Source: a virus. Taken from it: a DNA stretch of 39,236 nucleotides. The notes under the pieces are model-generated. The model was not told where the DNA came from. It ran no database searches and saw only the letters and a program-made list of their open reading frames with translations. Below are positions 1-39,236 of this stretch, one piece after another. The first letter of the stretch is position 1. Every line of letters begins with the position of its first letter. A program made the position numbers and the translations under genes. The stretch lies in the IMG/VR virus record IMGVR_UViG_3300046507_000138, positions 1 to 39,236 of that record; one strand, given 5' to 3'.

Positions 1-179
1 GGGCTGCCATAGCGCTGGGCCATCGCCTCGTAATAGTCGCGCCCGACGCGGTCGAGCTCGGCGGGAGAGTTATTGGCGGCAGGACGAACGCCGAAGCCGG
101 GATCAGTCTTCGTGTTCGGCATGACCTGCCACGCGCCCTGAGCGCCCTTCGGCGATACCGCGTTCGGGTTGCCGTTGCT
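1..179. repeat. Terminal redundancy, left copy
   Basis: These 179 bases match the last 179 bases of the window (39058-39236) except for one base: T at 52 against G at 39109. The repeat lies inside an open reading frame and not in a noncoding end, so it looks like the overlap of a circular or circularly permuted molecule rather than a dedicated direct terminal repeat. Removing one copy gives a circular map of about 39,057 bp. Confidence 0.9.
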
Positions 180-1160
180 CTCCGTCTGAACGATCGCAGA
201 ATGAGCCGGGTTAGACGCCTCCGCTTCGTTCCCATACTCCATCTGGCCGGTCTGCTTGTTGAAAATCGGGATCGCCTTGAACTGAGCATTCCCAGCCGCA
301 GCCGCCGCGGCGTTACCCTGCATCGCCGCCTGCGCCCCCGGAAGCGGGACATACCCTGCGGAATTACCGCCGGCGTCGAAAACCTGAGTCGTTCCGGGGA
401 TGTCCTGCGCCGTATAGGCAAGAGGCTGCATCGTGCGCGGATCGCGGAACGTGCCCGTCCCGGTCACCGGCGCGATGTAGTTGTTCTTCTCGATGAGAGC
501 CTTTGCGAGCGCGTGGCCCTGCTCGCTGTTCGGATCGATGCCGGCCGCACGAAGCTGCGGGACGATATCGGCCTGCTTATATGCCGCCGCCTGACTCTCG
601 AAATACTTGTCGGGCGACTGCATCAGCATCATGGCCGCCAACTGAGGATTCATCCCGAGCGGGTTCAGCGGCGCGCTTCCGCCTACGTTGTTTGCCAGTT
701 GAGGCCCAGCAGAGACGACATTGACGGGTCCGCCTGTTGCGGTGCCTGGAGTCCCATTGCCCCCATCAGCCCCATAGAAGGGGTTAGCGACGCTCCCTGC
801 GATGCCGCCCCCGACCCCGCCATCGGCAGAGTCGGGGCTGAGCTGTGGGGACTGCGCGGCGGCACCTCCTCCACCCAGCGCGCCGATGAGACTCGCCCAT
901 TGGTTCTGACCGAGCTGATTCATGCCCTGACCGGCCTGCTGGCCGATCTTGTTGGCGAGCAGCCCCTGCGCGATATTGGAGATCGGCGCGATCGGCGACG
1001 TGCGCGCTGCCACCGTATATTGGCCGGAAGTCCCAGCCTGCGGGGTCTGAGGTTGCGTCATTGCACCCTGCATGAGAGCGTTCGCCAGCGCTTGCTGCCG
1101 CTGGAGATCGTACATGCTGCCTTGGTACTGCGGCAGCACAAATGGAGTCGAGCCGGCCAT
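1..1160 (-). CDS. Virion transglycosylase (SLT domain) internal protein, N-terminal part
   Basis: The reading frame starts at the ATG at 1160 and runs off the left edge without a stop. Across the terminal redundancy it continues in frame to the stop at 38223, giving one protein of 664 residues. Residues 1-320 are Gly/Ala/Gln-rich. A lytic transglycosylase (SLT) domain begins near residue 320 with catalytic Glu327 in TESNGNP and the SPKGAQGAWQVMP block. Such proteins are carried in podovirus virions and locally cut peptidoglycan during DNA entry. The start overlaps the stop of the upstream gene (TAATG), so translation is probably coupled. The one polymorphic base of the repeat changes residue 370 (Asp here, Ala in the right copy). 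Function is well supported by the motif; ejection as inner-core protein is inferred from neighbours. Confidence 0.85.
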   Translation of the reverse strand, partial: MAGSTPFVLPQYQGSMYDLQRQQALANALMQGAMTQPQTPQAGTSGQYTVAARTSPIAPISNIAQGLLANKIGQQAGQGMNQLGQNQWASLIGALGGGGAAAQSPQLSPDSADGGVGGGIAGSVANPFYGADGGNGTPGTATGGPVNVVSAGPQLANNVGGSAPLNPLGMNPQLAAMMLMQSPDKYFESQAAAYKQADIVPQLRAAGIDPNSEQGHALAKALIEKNNYIAPVTGTGTFRDPRTMQPLAYTAQDIPGTTQVFDAGGNSAGYVPLPGAQAAMQGNAAAAAAGNAQFKAIPIFNKQTGQMEYGNEAEASNPAHSAIVQTESNGNPNAVSPKGAQGAWQVMPNTKTDPGFGVRPAANNSPAELDRVGRDYYEAMAQRYGS

Positions 1161-1750
1161 TATTGAACCCCGAATTTAGAGATTGCCGAACCGATGTAGA
1201 GCGCTGTCTGAACTGCGTTCTGCATCACCAACTGAAACTGCTTGTCATCGAGAAGATCGATTTCGTCGAGCACATCGGCGCCGTGCGAAACATCGTGCTC
1301 GGCGTGGTAGCGAAGCGTGCGGCAGAGTTCCTTGCCGTGGATCTCTTCGAGCTTTTCGAGTGCTTCGACGTCGATCGGGAAACACTCGAGAACTGCCATA
1401 TAGCCGAGCAGCGCGACCGGGTCGACGTGATGGATCAGGTAATACTGCGACCCCGCCATCGCGACCGCCTCGGGAAGCACAGGAAGCGACTTAACGTGAA
1501 TATCCGCGGTCGCGAGGTCATTGCGCAACCAGAATTCGTGGCCCGCTTCTTCCTTCAGGTGATCGGCGAAATATGCCTTCAATTCACCGATCGACCGATC
1601 GCACGCCGCGCGCAGAAGGCTCTCACTCGCGGCGATTACGTTGTGAATGAAGATCAGGTTTCGAAGAAACACGTCCCGGCGCGTCAGGTCGATACCCGGA
1701 TACGCCGCGCGCACGTCGCGCACCGCCTGCATCAGTTGATCGCGCTTCAT
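1160..1750 (-). CDS. Haem-oxygenase-like di-iron protein (iron-containing redox enzyme type)
   Basis: This 196-residue, all-helical protein resembles the haem-oxygenase-like fold (TENA/PqqC/HDO, Haem_oxygenas_2). The metal-ligand pattern of di-iron members is visible: EEAGH (Glu68, His71), Glu122 in the YMAVLECF helix, and HxxxDxxH with His149, Asp153 and His156; Glu43 is a possible extra ligand. Known members oxidise amino-acid or fatty-acid substrates using O2 and two irons; the substrate here cannot be read. It overlaps the preceding gene by TGATG and the following one by TAATG, so it is locked into the virion operon between two internal-protein genes. That is an odd place for an oxygenase: it may be a structural reuse of the fold, a virion-carried enzyme or a moron. 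Fold call fairly confident, role unknown. Confidence 0.7.
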   Translation of the reverse strand: MKRDQLMQAVRDVRAAYPGIDLTRRDVFLRNLIFIHNVIAASESLLRAACDRSIGELKAYFADHLKEEAGHEFWLRNDLATADIHVKSLPVLPEAVAMAGSQYYLIHHVDPVALLGYMAVLECFPIDVEALEKLEEIHGKELCRTLRYHAEHDVSHGADVLDEIDLLDDKQFQLVMQNAVQTALYIGSAISKFGVQ

Positions 1751-2898
1751 CAGAAGAACGCCAGTGCAGCGGCGCCAGCAAGCCCCGCGATCGCGCCTGT
1801 CGTCGAGTTCGCGCTTTGAACGTCCGCGTTGTGGCCGGCGAGCTGCGCTTGGTACTGGTTGTTGATGTTGCCAGCAATATCGGCCGCCTGCGCCGAGGAT
1901 TGGCCGACGCCGGAATAGCCCGGAATCAGGCTTGCGATCGATCCAAGCTGCTGGTACGGGAGCATGCCGAGCGTGCCTTGTTGGCCATACAGCGCGCCTT
2001 GCTGGCTGAGGTTCGAGCCAAGCTGACCATACAGCCCCGCCTGCTGCCCGATGAGGTTACCTTGCTGCCCGAGATTGCTCGCCTGCTGCCCGAAGAGTCC
2101 CGCCTGCGTGTTGATGCCGGCAATCTGATTCTGCAAGTTCTGCGCGCCGAGCTGCGATCCGGTCATGACGGCCTGATTCTGCGCGTTGCTGTACGCCTGC
2201 TGCTTCTGGTTGTTGAAGTTGGTCATGGCGTTGTTGTACGCCTCCGATCCCGGCGTGAGCCCGGAATTCGCCAGCGACGCGGAGAGCGATTCGCCCTGCT
2301 GCGAGAACTGCGGATCGAGATACTGCGTCTGCGCCTTGTATGCAGCATCCTGCCCCTGCTGCTGAGCCTTCAACGCTGCGCCCTGATTCAGCTGCGAACC
2401 GAGTCCGGCGAGACCTTGGTTGATCGACCCGTATTTCGAGCTCAGGGCATTGATCGATGGCGTCAAGCCGGCGATGTTGTCGTTCAGACCGCCGTAATTC
2501 GCCTGCAACCCGTTGAGCCCGGACTGAATCTGAGAGTTCAGCCCATTGCCCTGCCCGATCTGGCCGAAAAGGCTGTTGAACTGGTTTTCGACAAGTGGAT
2601 TGGCGCTCTGAAACGTCGAATAGATCGGAGCGCCGGTCTGCGGATCATCCGCAATATGCGTCGTCGCCTGCGCCCCGAGCAAGCCCTGATAATTATTCAG
2701 GTTCAGCGCCTTGTTATAGGCGGCCGTCTGCTGGTTTGTCTGCGTGGTCGCGGCGGCCGTCGTGTACGGATCTGGCGCGGCCGGCGAAGAGCCGCCCTTA
2801 CCGCCTTCGAGCGTTGCGGGACGAGTATTCCAGAACGACTTGCGGAAAGCGTTCGGCGGAAGGTCGGGAGTGTCCGACGTCAGCAAGTAGAGCCGCAT
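1750..2898 (-). CDS. Glutamine-rich internal virion protein
   Basis: This 382-residue protein is rich in Gln, Asn, Gly and Ala. The second half is built of short imperfect repeats around LGQQ, LIGQQAGLYGQ and LSQQGALYGQQ (encoded about 1980-2110), and the C-terminus (TGAIAGLAGAAALAFF) is hydrophobic and could insert in a membrane. Composition and position, just before the SLT protein and after the tail-hub genes, fit an internal or ejection protein of a podovirus. The start ATG at 2898 has AAGG upstream and lies 101 bases inside the acetyltransferase gene, an unusually long overlap for this operon. I do not recognise an enzymatic domain; the virion role is inferred. Confidence 0.7.
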   Translation of the reverse strand: MRLYLLTSDTPDLPPNAFRKSFWNTRPATLEGGKGGSSPAAPDPYTTAAATTQTNQQTAAYNKALNLNNYQGLLGAQATTHIADDPQTGAPIYSTFQSANPLVENQFNSLFGQIGQGNGLNSQIQSGLNGLQANYGGLNDNIAGLTPSINALSSKYGSINQGLAGLGSQLNQGAALKAQQQGQDAAYKAQTQYLDPQFSQQGESLSASLANSGLTPGSEAYNNAMTNFNNQKQQAYSNAQNQAVMTGSQLGAQNLQNQIAGINTQAGLFGQQASNLGQQGNLIGQQAGLYGQLGSNLSQQGALYGQQGTLGMLPYQQLGSIASLIPGYSGVGQSSAQAADIAGNINNQYQAQLAGHNADVQSANSTTGAIAGLAGAAALAFF

Positions 2899-3319
2899 GG
2901 TATTTGCCTTCGATGTATCGGCATTCTTCTTTCAGCATGCCGTAGATGATGAGGTCTGTTCCATCGGTGCAAGCCGCGCGGAGTTGTCCCTCGCGTTTGA
3001 ATCCGAGATGCTCATCGAAGCGCTGCGCGTCGACGTTATCGGCCCGCACGAGGCCGGTGATGCGATTGCATTTCTCATGCACGAACGCGTAACGGAAGCA
3101 GGCCGCCATATAGGCCGGCGTCATCCAGTGCCGGGTTCCGTTCGAAGCGACGTGCATGGCGATGTTGGCGCCCGTCTTGCCATCGAAAACGACGCCCGCT
3201 ATCAGTTCGCCGTCTTGTTCCAGACCGATCGCCGCATAGTCCTTGAACGTCTCGGCATCGACGCGCGCGGCGACGTATCGCATCACGCGCTCCTGTTCGA
3301 ACCAGACGATGCGCTTCAC
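2798..3319 (-). CDS. GNAT-family acetyltransferase-like protein
   Basis: The 173-residue product has the GNAT layout: N-terminal helix, GELIAGVVFDG strand pair, helix with the ACFRYAFVHEKCNRI segment that precedes the acetyl-CoA strand, then VRADNVDAQRFDEHLGFKREGQLR, a typical GNAT C-terminal half. Such genes recur among the tail genes of podoviruses; the acceptor is unknown. A GTG at 3319 lies one base after the upstream stop and gives the family-like N-terminus; an ATG at 3283 has a much better Shine-Dalgarno (AGGAGCGCGTG) and gives 161 residues. The last 33 residues overlap the next gene and look less conserved. Fold call good, function unknown. Confidence 0.75.
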   Translation of the reverse strand: MKRIVWFEQERVMRYVAARVDAETFKDYAAIGLEQDGELIAGVVFDGKTGANIAMHVASNGTRHWMTPAYMAACFRYAFVHEKCNRITGLVRADNVDAQRFDEHLGFKREGQLRAACTDGTDLIIYGMLKEECRYIEGKYHAALLADVGHSRPSAERFPQVVLEYSSRNARRR

Positions 3320-3320
3320 T

Positions 3321-4901
3321 TCAGATCGTCCAGCCGGTCTCGAATACGATGTCGGATGCGGCCCAGTGGACCTCGTTACCGTTCACCGCAGCTTTGATAG
3401 TCGGGGAGCCAGTCATGCCGATCCCCGTCACGCCCTGCCATGCCTTCGCGATCTGCAGATTGCCGCCCCAGATACCCATGTCCCAGATGGCCGAATCCCA
3501 CACGGCAAAGCCGGTCGGCAGAAAAGAGAGCGTGGATTGCGGGATGTTCTGGTCGTAGTCAACGTTGATGCCGACCGCGATTGCAGGCGAACTATTCGCC
3601 CACAAGATCGGCCGCATCATCGTGAAACGCTTCTGAAGCGGCGTACCGAACTCGGTGAATGCCTGCTGCGCTACGGCATTGATGTTCGTGCTGTCGTCAG
3701 CGTTGCTGTTCCAGGCGAGGCCAACGTAATTCGGGCCGCCGAAGAAGATCCGATCCTGAAAACGCTCCCAGTGATTTGCATACCAGCCGGTGAAATTGCA
3801 CCATGCCCCGGTAATGGTGTTCATCACGTATTGCTCTTGCTGCCCAAGCCCGACCGGGATGTTGAGGATGATCATGTTCTCCAGCGGGAACAGGACCATG
3901 CACCATCCGTAGTTGTTCGGATATAGGCTCGTAGCACTCGAAATCGCGCCTTGAATCTTTGCTGTCAGATTGATGTTCGTGTTGACGCGCGATGACGCCA
4001 ACGCCTGAGAGATCGGCGCAAGACCGTCCTTGCCGACGTACAGGAGATCGCCGCCGTACTTCATGAACGACCGGAAGCCCATCGGCGAGCCGAGTTGATA
4101 GACGCCGTTCAGGCTGAACGTGCTCGCCTGAGACGGATCGGTTCCACCATAAACAGCGATTTCTCCCTGGTTCGTGCAGATGCAGAGATAGTCCTGCATC
4201 CCATAGCCGCCGTCGACCGTCCAGACGCCCATCGAAACGAGCGAGCCGCCCATGCGGAAGATTGCGCTGAAATCGAATGCCTGAACCGCACCGCCGATGC
4301 TGCCGACCGGCGTGTAATACGCCTTGAGGCTGTTCTTTTGGATGAACCAGACGCGAGACGCGAACGACGTGACAAAGGAAAGCGTCGTCGGGTCAACGCC
4401 AGTGATCGATATCGGCGTCGAAACCGCGGTGACGCTCTGCCACGTCGAGCCGTTGTAGACGTAATAACCATCCTGCCCGTTGACGCAAAGCAGGAACGCG
4501 CCGGCCGCCGTCGAGAAGTTCGTGTACGACCATTTGTCATTGGTCAGGCTGCTGACCGCGGGCGCTCCGATCGCCCCGCCCGAGGTCACGTCGTAGATGC
4601 CCGTCCCAGACGCCGCGAAAAGCTTTGACGTGCCGATGGCCGGGTTGTACCCCATCACGGTGTTGACCTGAGTGATAAAGCCCGTGGCCCACTTTGTGAA
4701 GCCGTCACGGACCATCACATCGGAGGTCGTCGGAAACCAGTTCGTGAGGGAAACGGCATCCTGCGGAGGCATCTCGGCGAGCGAGTCGCGCGCGTTCCAG
4801 CCGCCAATCGGAGCAGGCATGTTGACCGTCTGCGATCGCTGCCCCTGAGCCTGACGCTTGCGGCGCTGCGCGGCCGCGGCGATGCCGGTTACGTTCGTCA
4901 T
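3321..4901 (-). CDS. Tail hub / head-tail closure protein
   Basis: This 526-residue, beta-rich protein has a basic N-terminal tail (QRRKRQAQ) and an early conserved segment IGGWNARDSLAEMPPQDA followed by LTNWFPTTSDVMVRDGF. That signature recurs in a podovirus structural family encoded just downstream of the connector proteins. Repeating beta-strand blocks with aromatic pairs suggest a propeller or beta-sandwich hub. Its start overlaps the stop of the upstream connector gene (ATGA). Position suggests a role in closing the portal or stabilising packaged DNA, comparable in place but not clearly in sequence to P22 gp10. Virion protein likely; exact role inferred. Confidence 0.7.
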   Translation of the reverse strand: MTNVTGIAAAAQRRKRQAQGQRSQTVNMPAPIGGWNARDSLAEMPPQDAVSLTNWFPTTSDVMVRDGFTKWATGFITQVNTVMGYNPAIGTSKLFAASGTGIYDVTSGGAIGAPAVSSLTNDKWSYTNFSTAAGAFLLCVNGQDGYYVYNGSTWQSVTAVSTPISITGVDPTTLSFVTSFASRVWFIQKNSLKAYYTPVGSIGGAVQAFDFSAIFRMGGSLVSMGVWTVDGGYGMQDYLCICTNQGEIAVYGGTDPSQASTFSLNGVYQLGSPMGFRSFMKYGGDLLYVGKDGLAPISQALASSRVNTNINLTAKIQGAISSATSLYPNNYGWCMVLFPLENMIILNIPVGLGQQEQYVMNTITGAWCNFTGWYANHWERFQDRIFFGGPNYVGLAWNSNADDSTNINAVAQQAFTEFGTPLQKRFTMMRPILWANSSPAIAVGINVDYDQNIPQSTLSFLPTGFAVWDSAIWDMGIWGGNLQIAKAWQGVTGIGMTGSPTIKAAVNGNEVHWAASDIVFETGWTI

Positions 4902-30889: not shown

Positions 30890-32008
30890 ATGGCTGCACG
30901 ACCACGCATCCGCAAACGCGCAAACTGGCCTGAGCATCTGCACGAGCCGCGTCCGAATTATTATGTTTGGCGCGATCCACGGGACGGCAAGACGCATGTA
31001 CTAGGTCGAATCTCGCTCGCCGAGGCCATTTATCAGGCTCAGGAGGCGAATGTGATCGTGGCGAATGCCAAGGTTACACGCACACTTGCCGAGCGACTGA
31101 CGGAACAGCAGAAGACGATCGCTGATCTGATCGACCGCATGCCGACCGAAGGCGTCAAGGCATCCACGCTCAAGACGCGCAGCTATGTCGACGGCGCCAT
31201 CGTGAAAGCGCTCGGCACGATCGAGTGTGACAAGCTGACGACGAAGCATATCGCCGACTTCATTGAGCCGATCGTGGAGGAAGGAAAGAAGCGCTGGGCA
31301 CAATCGATCCGAAATCGCCTCGTGACAATCTGCCGGCGCGGTATGGAGCTCGGGCTGATCACGACGATGAACCCGGCCAAGGAAACGTCACGCCCGGTTC
31401 CGAAGACGAAGCGCCGCCGACTGACGATCGAAGAGTTCCAGGCGATCTACGACAAGGCACCGGAGGTCAATGACTGGCTCCAGAACGCGATGCTGTTGGC
31501 GCTCGTGTCAGGACAGGACAGATCGACAATCGGCCGCTGGCAGCGCTCGTTCTCGTCTGGAGATGTCGTGCTTCTTCAGCGCTCGAAAACCTCAATCAAG
31601 ATTGAAATTCCGCTGGCGCTGCGTCTCGACGCGATAGGCATGTCTCTCGGCGATGTCATCGCGAAGTGCAAGTCGACCGGCGTCGTCAGCAAGTATCTGA
31701 TTCACCATGTCAGGAATCAGGGCCGTGCGAAGACTGGAACTCATGTGAAGCTGGGAAGCATCAGTCAATCATTCGCTGATGCGCGCACGCTCGCTGGCAT
31801 TACGAACGACGATTCTGCTCCGACTTTTCACGAGATTCGCAGTTTGTCGAAGCGGCTCTATGACGCTCAAGGTGGCATCGACACCAAGGCGCTGCTCGGT
31901 CACATGACCGATGCGATGGCTGAAATGTACGCCGACAGCCGCGGAATCGCGCCGATAAAGGTGACGATCGCCACAAATCATTCTGAACGAATTAACCACA
32001 CCGGTTGA
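30890..32008 (+). CDS. int: Tyrosine integrase (lambda Int type)
   Basis: The 372-residue recombinase has an N-terminal arm-binding domain (NYYVWRDPRDGKTHVLGRIS), a core-binding helical domain and a catalytic domain with Arg211 (SGQDR), His314-x2-Arg317 (FHEIR), His338 (LLGHMT) and the nucleophile Tyr347 (AEMYAD). Spacing closely follows lambda Int. It integrates the phage at attP, presumably just downstream. Last gene of the rightward early operon. High confidence. Confidence 0.95.
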   Translation: MAARPRIRKRANWPEHLHEPRPNYYVWRDPRDGKTHVLGRISLAEAIYQAQEANVIVANAKVTRTLAERLTEQQKTIADLIDRMPTEGVKASTLKTRSYVDGAIVKALGTIECDKLTTKHIADFIEPIVEEGKKRWAQSIRNRLVTICRRGMELGLITTMNPAKETSRPVPKTKRRRLTIEEFQAIYDKAPEVNDWLQNAMLLALVSGQDRSTIGRWQRSFSSGDVVLLQRSKTSIKIEIPLALRLDAIGMSLGDVIAKCKSTGVVSKYLIHHVRNQGRAKTGTHVKLGSISQSFADARTLAGITNDDSAPTFHEIRSLSKRLYDAQGGIDTKALLGHMTDAMAEMYADSRGIAPIKVTIATNHSERINHTG

Positions 32009-32227: not shown

Positions 32228-32950
32228 ATGAACGGAAAAATCATGAAAGGTTTCGCTGCATCCTTGGCCGGGATGTTTCTGATTGCATGCGCTGGGTGCG
32301 GAGGCGGAGGCGGAGGCGGGAGCGCGCCGGCTTCGCAATCGGCTCCTATGACGAAGAAGGCCGTGACGATCGACGCGGAGGGAGATTCGACCTATTACGG
32401 CACGCAGGTCATCAACGGAGAGACGCTGAGAACTGCGGCCAATCCTCCGGCGCTGCTTCAGCAGAAGTTTGGAGCCAATGCCACAGTCATCAACAGCGCG
32501 AGGGGCGGCGCAGATGTCACGCAGGCATTGTTCGGCATTGCGCCGCGCTACACCGACACCCTCACAACGCGATTGGCCGCGAACGGTGCGCAGCTCGTGA
32601 TCTCGAATTTCGCGATCAACGATTCGATCCGGCTGAGCCAGGAGGATTATCGGAACGGGCTGATTTCGTGGGTCAACGCCGTTCGCAATATGGGGCGCAC
32701 GCCGATCCTGGAAGAACCGAACCCGACGTGCGCTCCGAACGTAACGCGGCTCGATGAGTACGTCACCATCCTGCGCGACGTGGCCGCCCAGCAGAGCGTC
32801 ACGCTGATCACGCAGTACGACTACATCAAGTCGCTGCCGAACTGGCAGGGGATGCTCTCAGACTGCATTCACCCGCTCGATCCGCTCTACGCGATCAAGG
32901 CGCAGCGTGAGTATGACGTGCTTGCACCGATCGTGGCGAAGATGCAGTAA
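32228..32950 (+). CDS. SGNH/GDSL-hydrolase lipoprotein
   Basis: The 240-residue protein has a lipoprotein signal (lipobox LIAC, Cys21) and a Gly-rich tether, then an SGNH hydrolase: block I EGDSTYYG with nucleophile Ser54, block II Gly93 in ARGGAD, block III NFAIND with Asn131, and block V DCIHP with Asp212 and His215. It should be an outer-membrane or periplasmic esterase, perhaps removing acetyl groups from surface polysaccharide. It stands alone between attP and the convergent late genes (GGAG Shine-Dalgarno), typical for a lysogenic-conversion gene. Family high; substrate unknown. Confidence 0.82.
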   Translation: MNGKIMKGFAASLAGMFLIACAGCGGGGGGGSAPASQSAPMTKKAVTIDAEGDSTYYGTQVINGETLRTAANPPALLQQKFGANATVINSARGGADVTQALFGIAPRYTDTLTTRLAANGAQLVISNFAINDSIRLSQEDYRNGLISWVNAVRNMGRTPILEEPNPTCAPNVTRLDEYVTILRDVAAQQSVTLITQYDYIKSLPNWQGMLSDCIHPLDPLYAIKAQREYDVLAPIVAKMQ

Positions 32951-38222: not shown

Positions 38223-39236
38223 TCAGAACGCTCCCATCTGTTCGAGATTCTTGATCTTCTGGACGATCTTCGGATCCTGCTTGATCAACTTCTGCGCGAA
38301 CGCTTGACGCTGAGCCGGGTCCTGAATGTTCGCGTATTGGAAGATGCGAGGATCGGCGTTCTGGTCGAATTTCTGCTCGGCATTGTTGTACCCGACTGCA
38401 TCGCGCGAGTTGGCGAGAGGCGTCAGGAGACGCGATTTCGCCTGCGTCATTTGCTGCGCGCCGATGAGGTTGTCCGCGGCCTCATTGATCGCCTGCGGCG
38501 TCATCTTCGCGTTCGGGTATGCCGACTCGAGAATCGAGCGGGCCGCGTCGGTCCCCATTCCGTTTGAACTCAGGCGCGCGACGATCTGATTCGAATACTT
38601 CTTGAGCAGGTCGTTTGCCGTTACTGCATCGGTCGCCTTTTCGCTGCCGGCGAGCGAAAGGAGTCCGTTGACGTAATTGATTCGATCAGACTGCTGGCCG
38701 GTAGCGGCCTTCGTCGACAGATCCTTGATGCTTTGCAGGTAGGAAATCGTATTCTGCGCCTCAGAGTTGCTCCCACTCAGCGCCTTGTATTTCGTGGAGA
38801 GCTCGTCCTGAATATTGCGCGCTCCGCTTTCTGCCCCGGCTTGCGCGCCCATCGGTGCGCCTGCCGCGAACCGAGAAGGCTGCTGCTGAGTCGGCGCGGC
38901 TCCTTGGTTTGCTGCCCCACTATTCACTGCCGTCAGCGTAACCACCTTGCCGACGTAGTTGCGTGTCTCCGCAGGAAGCTTCTCGAACTGAGCGCCGTTC
39001 TTGAGCCACGTGTCGGTCGCGCCGGGTCCCATGTTATAGGCGATTGCACCGAGCGCCGGGCTGCCATAGCGCTGGGCCATCGCCTCGTAATAGTCGCGCC
39101 CGACGCGGGCGAGCTCGGCGGGAGAGTTATTGGCGGCAGGACGAACGCCGAAGCCGGGATCAGTCTTCGTGTTCGGCATGACCTGCCACGCGCCCTGAGC
39201 GCCCTTCGGCGATACCGCGTTCGGGTTGCCGTTGCT
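38223..39236 (-). CDS. Virion transglycosylase (SLT domain) internal protein, C-terminal part
   Basis: This is the continuation of the gene starting at 1160. At the right edge the frame is open; the ATG at 39179 is an internal Met (residue 347 of 664), not a start. The rest of the SLT domain is here, with YYEAMAQRYGSPALGAIAYN then MGPG (AYNMGPG at residues 393-399). A helical C-terminal half follows (ELSTKYKALSGSNSEAQNTI, RSILESAYPNAKMTPQAINE). The stop is one base before the 703-aa gene. In this copy residue 370 is Ala. Confidence 0.85.
   Translation of the reverse strand, partial: SNGNPNAVSPKGAQGAWQVMPNTKTDPGFGVRPAANNSPAELARVGRDYYEAMAQRYGSPALGAIAYNMGPGATDTWLKNGAQFEKLPAETRNYVGKVVTLTAVNSGAANQGAAPTQQQPSRFAAGAPMGAQAGAESGARNIQDELSTKYKALSGSNSEAQNTISYLQSIKDLSTKAATGQQSDRINYVNGLLSLAGSEKATDAVTANDLLKKYSNQIVARLSSNGMGTDAARSILESAYPNAKMTPQAINEAADNLIGAQQMTQAKSRLLTPLANSRDAVGYNNAEQKFDQNADPRIFQYANIQDPAQRQAFAQKLIKQDPKIVQKIKNLEQMGAF
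39058..39236. repeat. Terminal redundancy, right copy
   Basis: Second copy of the bases at 1-179, differing only at 39109 (G; T at 52). See the left copy for interpretation. Confidence 0.9.

Follow-up and report, generated by a model that had tools for sequence, protein, structure and literature searches.

A gene for a haem-oxygenase-like dimetal oxidase (HDO) lies in the virion operon of a temperate podophage-type virus, and among its relatives, phages that have this gene tend to show an aromatic residue at the very end of the adjacent virion protein; on comparative sequence evidence, this suggests a chemical modification by the virus at the end of one of its own DNA-delivery proteins. The window, that is, the whole stretch of 39,236 nucleotides that was analysed (IMG/VR record IMGVR_UViG_3300046507_000138), carries an integrase gene (30890-32008), a terminase, a portal and P22-like tail genes in addition to the operon considered here (Table 1). 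We regard it as somewhat probable that the HDO oxidises the C-terminal residue of a protein of the same virus, the candidate substrate being most likely the terminal Phe of the coupled ejection-type protein. The broader proposition has about an even chance of being correct, namely that a viral HDO oxidises the C-terminal aromatic residue of its own genome-delivery protein in a RiPP-like maturation of a virion protein, that this occurs in tailed phages only distantly related to each other as well as in one or more phages of the tectivirus-like type, and that it has a sister system in Streptomyces.

Table 1. Features of the HDO gene and its operon in the window.
Feature	Position	Strand	Evidence
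HDO gene, 196 aa, PF14518 family	1160..1750	minus	ORF; Pfam; AlphaFold2 model; Foldseek
Codons of predicted metal ligands E68 (1547-1549) and H71 (1538-1540)	1538..1549	minus	helix 55-80
Codon of predicted ligand E122	1385..1387	minus	end of helix 111-122; invariant in 105 sequences of three groups
Codons of H149-x3-D153-x2-H156	1283..1306	minus	helix 144-165; invariant in 105 sequences of three groups
Upstream coupled virion/ejection-type protein, 382 aa, phrog_6121, candidate substrate	1750..2898	minus	PHROG E 1e-31
C-terminal tail TTGAIAGLAGAAALAFF of the phrog_6121 protein, whose last residue is Phe-COOH; proposed tag for recognition and site of modification	1753..1803	minus	
Downstream coupled lytic-transglycosylase virion protein	3..1160	minus	SLT domain, Pfam E 7e-9
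GNAT-fold protein	2798..3319	minus	phrog_4470 E 5e-46
P22 gp10-like tail protein	3321..4901	minus	phrog_5107 E 7e-126

The assignment of the 196-aa product as a real HDO is well supported by its profile match, predicted fold, ligand conservation and phylogeny, in agreement with the original prediction of an enzyme of the UndA, SznF and CADD kind, which had placed the reading frame and all six presumed ligand residues exactly where they are found while giving no strand. The product matches the Pfam family PF14518 ('Haem_oxygenas_2') with an E value of 3.9e-9 and 37 bits against a cutoff of 28.9; no NCBIfam family and no significant PHROG family was obtained. An AlphaFold2 model built with eight homologues in the input (pLDDT 92.7, pTM 0.87) consists entirely of helices, and Foldseek comparison with the PDB returned as top matches 3dde, TenA proteins, CADD (TMq 0.79) and UndA (0.73), an HDO/TenA-like fold and not an unlike one; against predicted viral structures no match reached E 1e-3. 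In addition, a profile of 30 sequences finds 3dde (E 1e-4) in an alignment that covers all ligand positions (E-x2-H, E and H-x3-D-x2-H), and the E-x2-H spacing is of the UndA type.

In the model, E68 and H71 are located on helix 55-80, E122 on helix 111-122 and H149, D153 and H156 on helix 144-165, so that three His and three carboxylate ligands are present on three core helices. HDOs are defined by such a 3His/3carboxylate motif (PMC13108848), which has been placed on three core helices (PMC11363339), matching the arrangement in the phage protein. Similarity of the predicted fold to TenA is as high as to HDOs and the full HDO ligand set is present; TenA and PqqC do not need a metal (PMC11363339). 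Five of these residues (E68, E122, H149, D153 and H156) are conserved in every one of 48 viral, 33 Streptomyces and 24 Burkholderiales sequences, while H71 is kept in all sequences of the two bacterial groups and in 98% of the viral ones, the sole viral exception being L036, where it is replaced by Glu. The ligands are thus retained in close homologues, to a degree far beyond chance, and their invariance argues against a purely structural reuse of the fold, which the original prediction had offered as its alternative. Between the window and its closest relative, the HDO gene has a dN/dS of ~0.06 (dN 0.056, dS 0.88). Overall, the protein is predicted to be a catalytically intact dimetal oxidase, probably a di-iron one. 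A canonical haem-degrading oxygenase was rejected, as structural matches to HmuO were weaker than those to HDO/TenA proteins and six non-haem ligands are present; a ferritin/rubrerythrin-type di-iron protein gave insignificant matches only. L044 was a spurious weak match.

The neighbours of the HDO gene are virion genes, as had been proposed: PHROG assigns the upstream product to 'virion structural protein', and the downstream product is a transglycosylase-domain virion protein. The gene shares one base with each of them, in TGATG at 1750 (upstream neighbour) and in TAATG at 1160 (downstream neighbour), although what had been described as translational fusion is translational coupling. The transglycosylase gene, which runs from 1160 down to 3, resumes at 39236-38223, and a full homologue matches both ends by tblastn; the ends of the record (1-180 and 39058-39236) have about 180 bases in common, which means that the genome either closes into a circle or is terminally redundant and that this gene continues at the other end. 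The homologue of the GNAT gene in Sulfitobacter phage phiGT1 is annotated as a head assembly protein at the position of P22 gp14/T7 internal protein A, and the genes after it are annotated as injection proteins, which places the HDO inside an ejection-protein cluster. In related IMG/VR contigs the order capsid, adaptor, gp10-like tail protein, GNAT, phrog_6121 protein and HDO is kept, and the HDO follows the P22-like ejection-protein (phrog_6121) gene directly in 43 of the 48 HDO-bearing viral records. Two further observations concern the window: the genes for the GNAT and phrog_6121 proteins overlap by about 100 bases (2798-2898), each of them being conserved in relatives, and a GDSL lipase/acylhydrolase gene (32228-32950; PF13472, E 1e-10) adjoins the integrase.

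The HDO has a fixed slot in the virion operon, and this slot is often empty or filled by another gene in related phages. Only three of 80 contigs fetched by the tail protein carry it, and no homologue was detected in 50,697 named phage records (tblastn with three divergent HDO queries; one stray weak match, E 0.02). In ten related phages the slot is occupied by a PAPS-reductase-domain enzyme, again overlapping by one base, indicating that it accepts alternative enzymes; two have a DUF7694 gene, and others show small Gly-rich proteins or nothing. Among named phages with the same module, Mx8 and Mx9 have a small gene there and in others the slot is empty. The PAPS-reductase-domain enzyme has 227 aa and stands after the phrog_6121 gene at L074:3521-4204 and in nine related contigs. 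Four contigs (L053, L054, L055 and L060) have a tail protein 71-86% identical to that of the window and yet lack the HDO; their phrog_6121 protein has a different C-terminal domain, and the slot holds a Gly-rich protein of 110-119 aa.

The last residue of the upstream virion protein in HDO-bearing phages is Phe in 34, Tyr in six and Leu in three (n=43), the near-constant pattern first noticed being a Phe after a Gly/Ala/Met-rich stretch. For comparison, HDO-bearing and HDO-less relatives were placed together on a tree of the tail protein (P22 gp10-like, phrog_5107), in which Phe (seven) or Tyr (one) ends the protein in 8 of 62 HDO-less relatives. The association between HDO presence and the last residue gave a Fisher value of 3e-17 for loci that were collected with different queries for the two classes and sampled by similarity, not at random. 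On the same tree, with at least 14 gains or losses of the HDO, a Pagel-type test yielded a likelihood ratio of 60.6 and a p value of ~2e-12, which is approximate because some rates lay at the optimiser bounds. Loci fetched after the rule had been noticed ended in Phe/Tyr in 14 of 16 cases and in Leu in the other two. Moreover, close pairs switch together, as is the case for the window (HDO, Phe) versus L053-L055 and L060 (no HDO, different C-terminal domain) and for L011 versus L057. In L024, where the HDO lies upstream of the terminase and far from the ejection gene, the ejection protein ends in GGLAALGFAMF, aromatic as predicted beforehand; in L030 and L036 the upstream proteins have no detectable homology to phrog_6121 and end in LTALAGF and GLVGLAGF, respectively. 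It was also considered whether the coupling itself forces a terminal Phe, a view that was rejected since the upstream protein in the ten PAPS-reductase phages, with the same overlap, mostly ends in Ala or Met.

The nearest non-viral HDOs are found in Streptomyces, between a radical SAM gene and a gene for a peptide of 67-80 aa of the NCBIfam 'aroma-sacti' type. All 30 loci examined, the original locus included, have the radical SAM reading frame and a peptide ending in (V/I)AGGALF, and the viral and Streptomyces enzymes form one clade (support 1.0) with H64, Y104, H108 and Y117 in common, residues that are mostly absent from the chromosomal relatives in Burkholderiales, which form a separate branch of the HDO tree. 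A ribosomally made candidate substrate with a conserved end thus stands beside the HDO in both groups (AGGALF in 30/30 Streptomyces loci, F/Y/L in 43/43 phages), which is a correlation. The Streptomyces operon (L040-L043, L209-L238) is widespread and comprises genes for the radical SAM protein, the HDO, the AGGALF peptide, a cyclase-like/ATPase protein, a subtilase and a GAF-like protein; our literature search for this radical SAM/HDO/AGGALF operon type found nothing relevant.

Taken together, the co-occurrence of the HDO with an aromatic residue at the C terminus and the RiPP-type relatives favour a modification of the C terminus of the virion protein, as judged from the sequences compared. 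In such a mechanism, the active site of the HDO would receive the hydrophobic tail, rich in Gly, Ala and Met, with the free carboxylate of the tail bound to one iron, and the enzyme would use O2 for an oxidation in the region of the beta-carbon of the terminal Phe, Tyr or Leu. A beta-methylene is present in all three residues alike and would sit near the oxidising iron. In the mangotoxin enzyme MboA, the C-terminal carboxylate of the peptide substrate coordinates Fe1 and the enzyme desaturates the last residue in its side chain, and carboxylates coordinate Fe1 likewise in AetD, UndA, HrmI and PolF (PMC13185094), while the haem-oxygenase-like VarO of the thiovarsolins has been proposed to desaturate Arg in a RiPP (PMC6511847). 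The MboA and VarO precedents, combined with this shared chemical group, suggest that the ejection protein would be oxidised at the beta position of its last residue. By precedent, the likely candidate products would be dehydro-Phe, beta-hydroxy-Phe or a decarboxylated enamide, and the modification may prepare the ejection protein, at its membrane-active end, for assembly of the virion or delivery of the DNA. No redox partner for the phage HDO was identified. Points against the proposal are the Phe/Tyr end in the eight HDO-less relatives, where the terminal aromatic has another use or history, the Leu end in three HDO-bearing phages, the Glu that replaces H71 in L036, and the fact that HDO and tail could partly move together by recombination.

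A different role would be that of a moron-type metabolic enzyme acting on a small host metabolite during late infection or in the lysogen, for which the slot is merely convenient. The alternative genes found in the slot (PAPS-reductase-domain and DUF7694) agree with this, as does the optional presence of the HDO and the fact that amino acids or fatty acids are the substrates of most characterised HDOs (PMC13108848). However, such a role would leave unexplained the C-terminal aromatic rule, its persistence in L024 where the HDO is not adjacent, and the RiPP-type relatives with a terminal Phe, and we consider it unlikely. Of the original prediction, the HDO identity is supported, but its two proposed functions (an enzyme carried along with the phage or changing the host, or a fold reused structurally) are not those favoured by the evidence, which points instead to modification of the virion protein's C terminus.

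It may also be argued that the HDO is a non-catalytic chaperone or virion component, whose pocket holds the hydrophobic aromatic tail of the ejection protein without oxidising it, either keeping the tail soluble until assembly or anchoring the HDO in the virion. This would account for the tail correlation and the coupled translation, and the GNAT-fold gene at the P22 gp14 position shows by precedent that a gene for virion assembly can have the fold of an enzyme; the model of the 382-aa candidate substrate is of low confidence (52.6), including the tail region, as for a flexible end. On the other hand, near-complete conservation of the metal ligands across viral, Streptomyces and other bacterial sequences would be unexpected for mere binding, which makes this explanation quite improbable. 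Finally, tail and HDO might be one recombining block without any functional link. Most genomes have the two side by side, and genes are often exchanged at this spot, as illustrated by the HDOs of the window and L009, which are 91% identical with HDO-less phages between them on the tail tree. Nevertheless, the genes are not adjacent in L024, the upstream proteins of L030 and L036 are non-homologous and still have LAGF ends, and the Streptomyces peptide is unrelated, lies downstream of the HDO and ends in AGGALF; with the tree-based test also contrary, a by-product of linkage or shared ancestry is very improbable.

An outlier of the collection is a record of 17,994 bases (L188/L243) from a tectivirus-like phage, as judged from its P3 major capsid protein (PF09018/PF25514, E 3e-51), in which the HDO lies between a packaging-ATPase-like gene and the capsid gene, just upstream of the latter. 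A 184-aa protein of this phage with an apparent N-terminal membrane segment ends in TGAISAIAGVALAAFF (GVALAAFF), and its end VKTGAISAIAGVALAAFF may be set against TTGAIAGLAGAAALAFF in the window, a likeness that is no more than suggestive, since it was picked out from about 20 genes after the fact.

If modification of the virion protein is correct, the end of a DNA-ejection protein undergoes O2-dependent chemistry in phages, a virion maturation of which we found no report; our literature search for oxidised ejection proteins returned nothing relevant, and neither the collection of named phages nor the library of viral structures nor the literature searched yielded a viral HDO. It would furthermore deorphanise a type of Streptomyces RiPP operon and provide a compact oxidase that modifies a protein C-terminus.

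In comparison with known systems, podophages of the Mx8/phiGT1 type, with their P22-like tail and ejection genes, have the same order from the major capsid through the GNAT and ejection proteins, but their named members lack the HDO and have an empty slot or another gene there. The Streptomyces radical SAM/HDO/AGGALF operons ('aroma-sacti cluster domain', StsA-related), whose enzymes are the sister clade of the viral HDOs, encode a linked ribosomal peptide with an invariant C-terminal Phe, as at the end of the phage candidate substrate, whereas their radical SAM partner and short precursor are both absent from the phages. No short precursor, protease or exporter gene was found beside the phage HDO, the candidate substrate being the 382-aa virion protein, and the phage system, which in our analysis would work like a RiPP system, is not classed as one. 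With the HDO superfamily (UndA, BesC, SznF, CADD, AetD, PolF and MboA) the phage protein shares the seven-helix haem-oxygenase-like fold and the 3His/3carboxylate ligand set on three core helices, while differing from its members in being viral, of 196 aa, without extra domains and in a virion operon, and in its proposed substrate, the C terminus of a large virion protein instead of a metabolite. MboA oxidises a residue within a peptide and VarO is proposed to do so, as is proposed for the phage enzyme; the substrate residue of both is Arg, whereas the phage candidate is a Phe, Tyr or Leu on a large structural protein.
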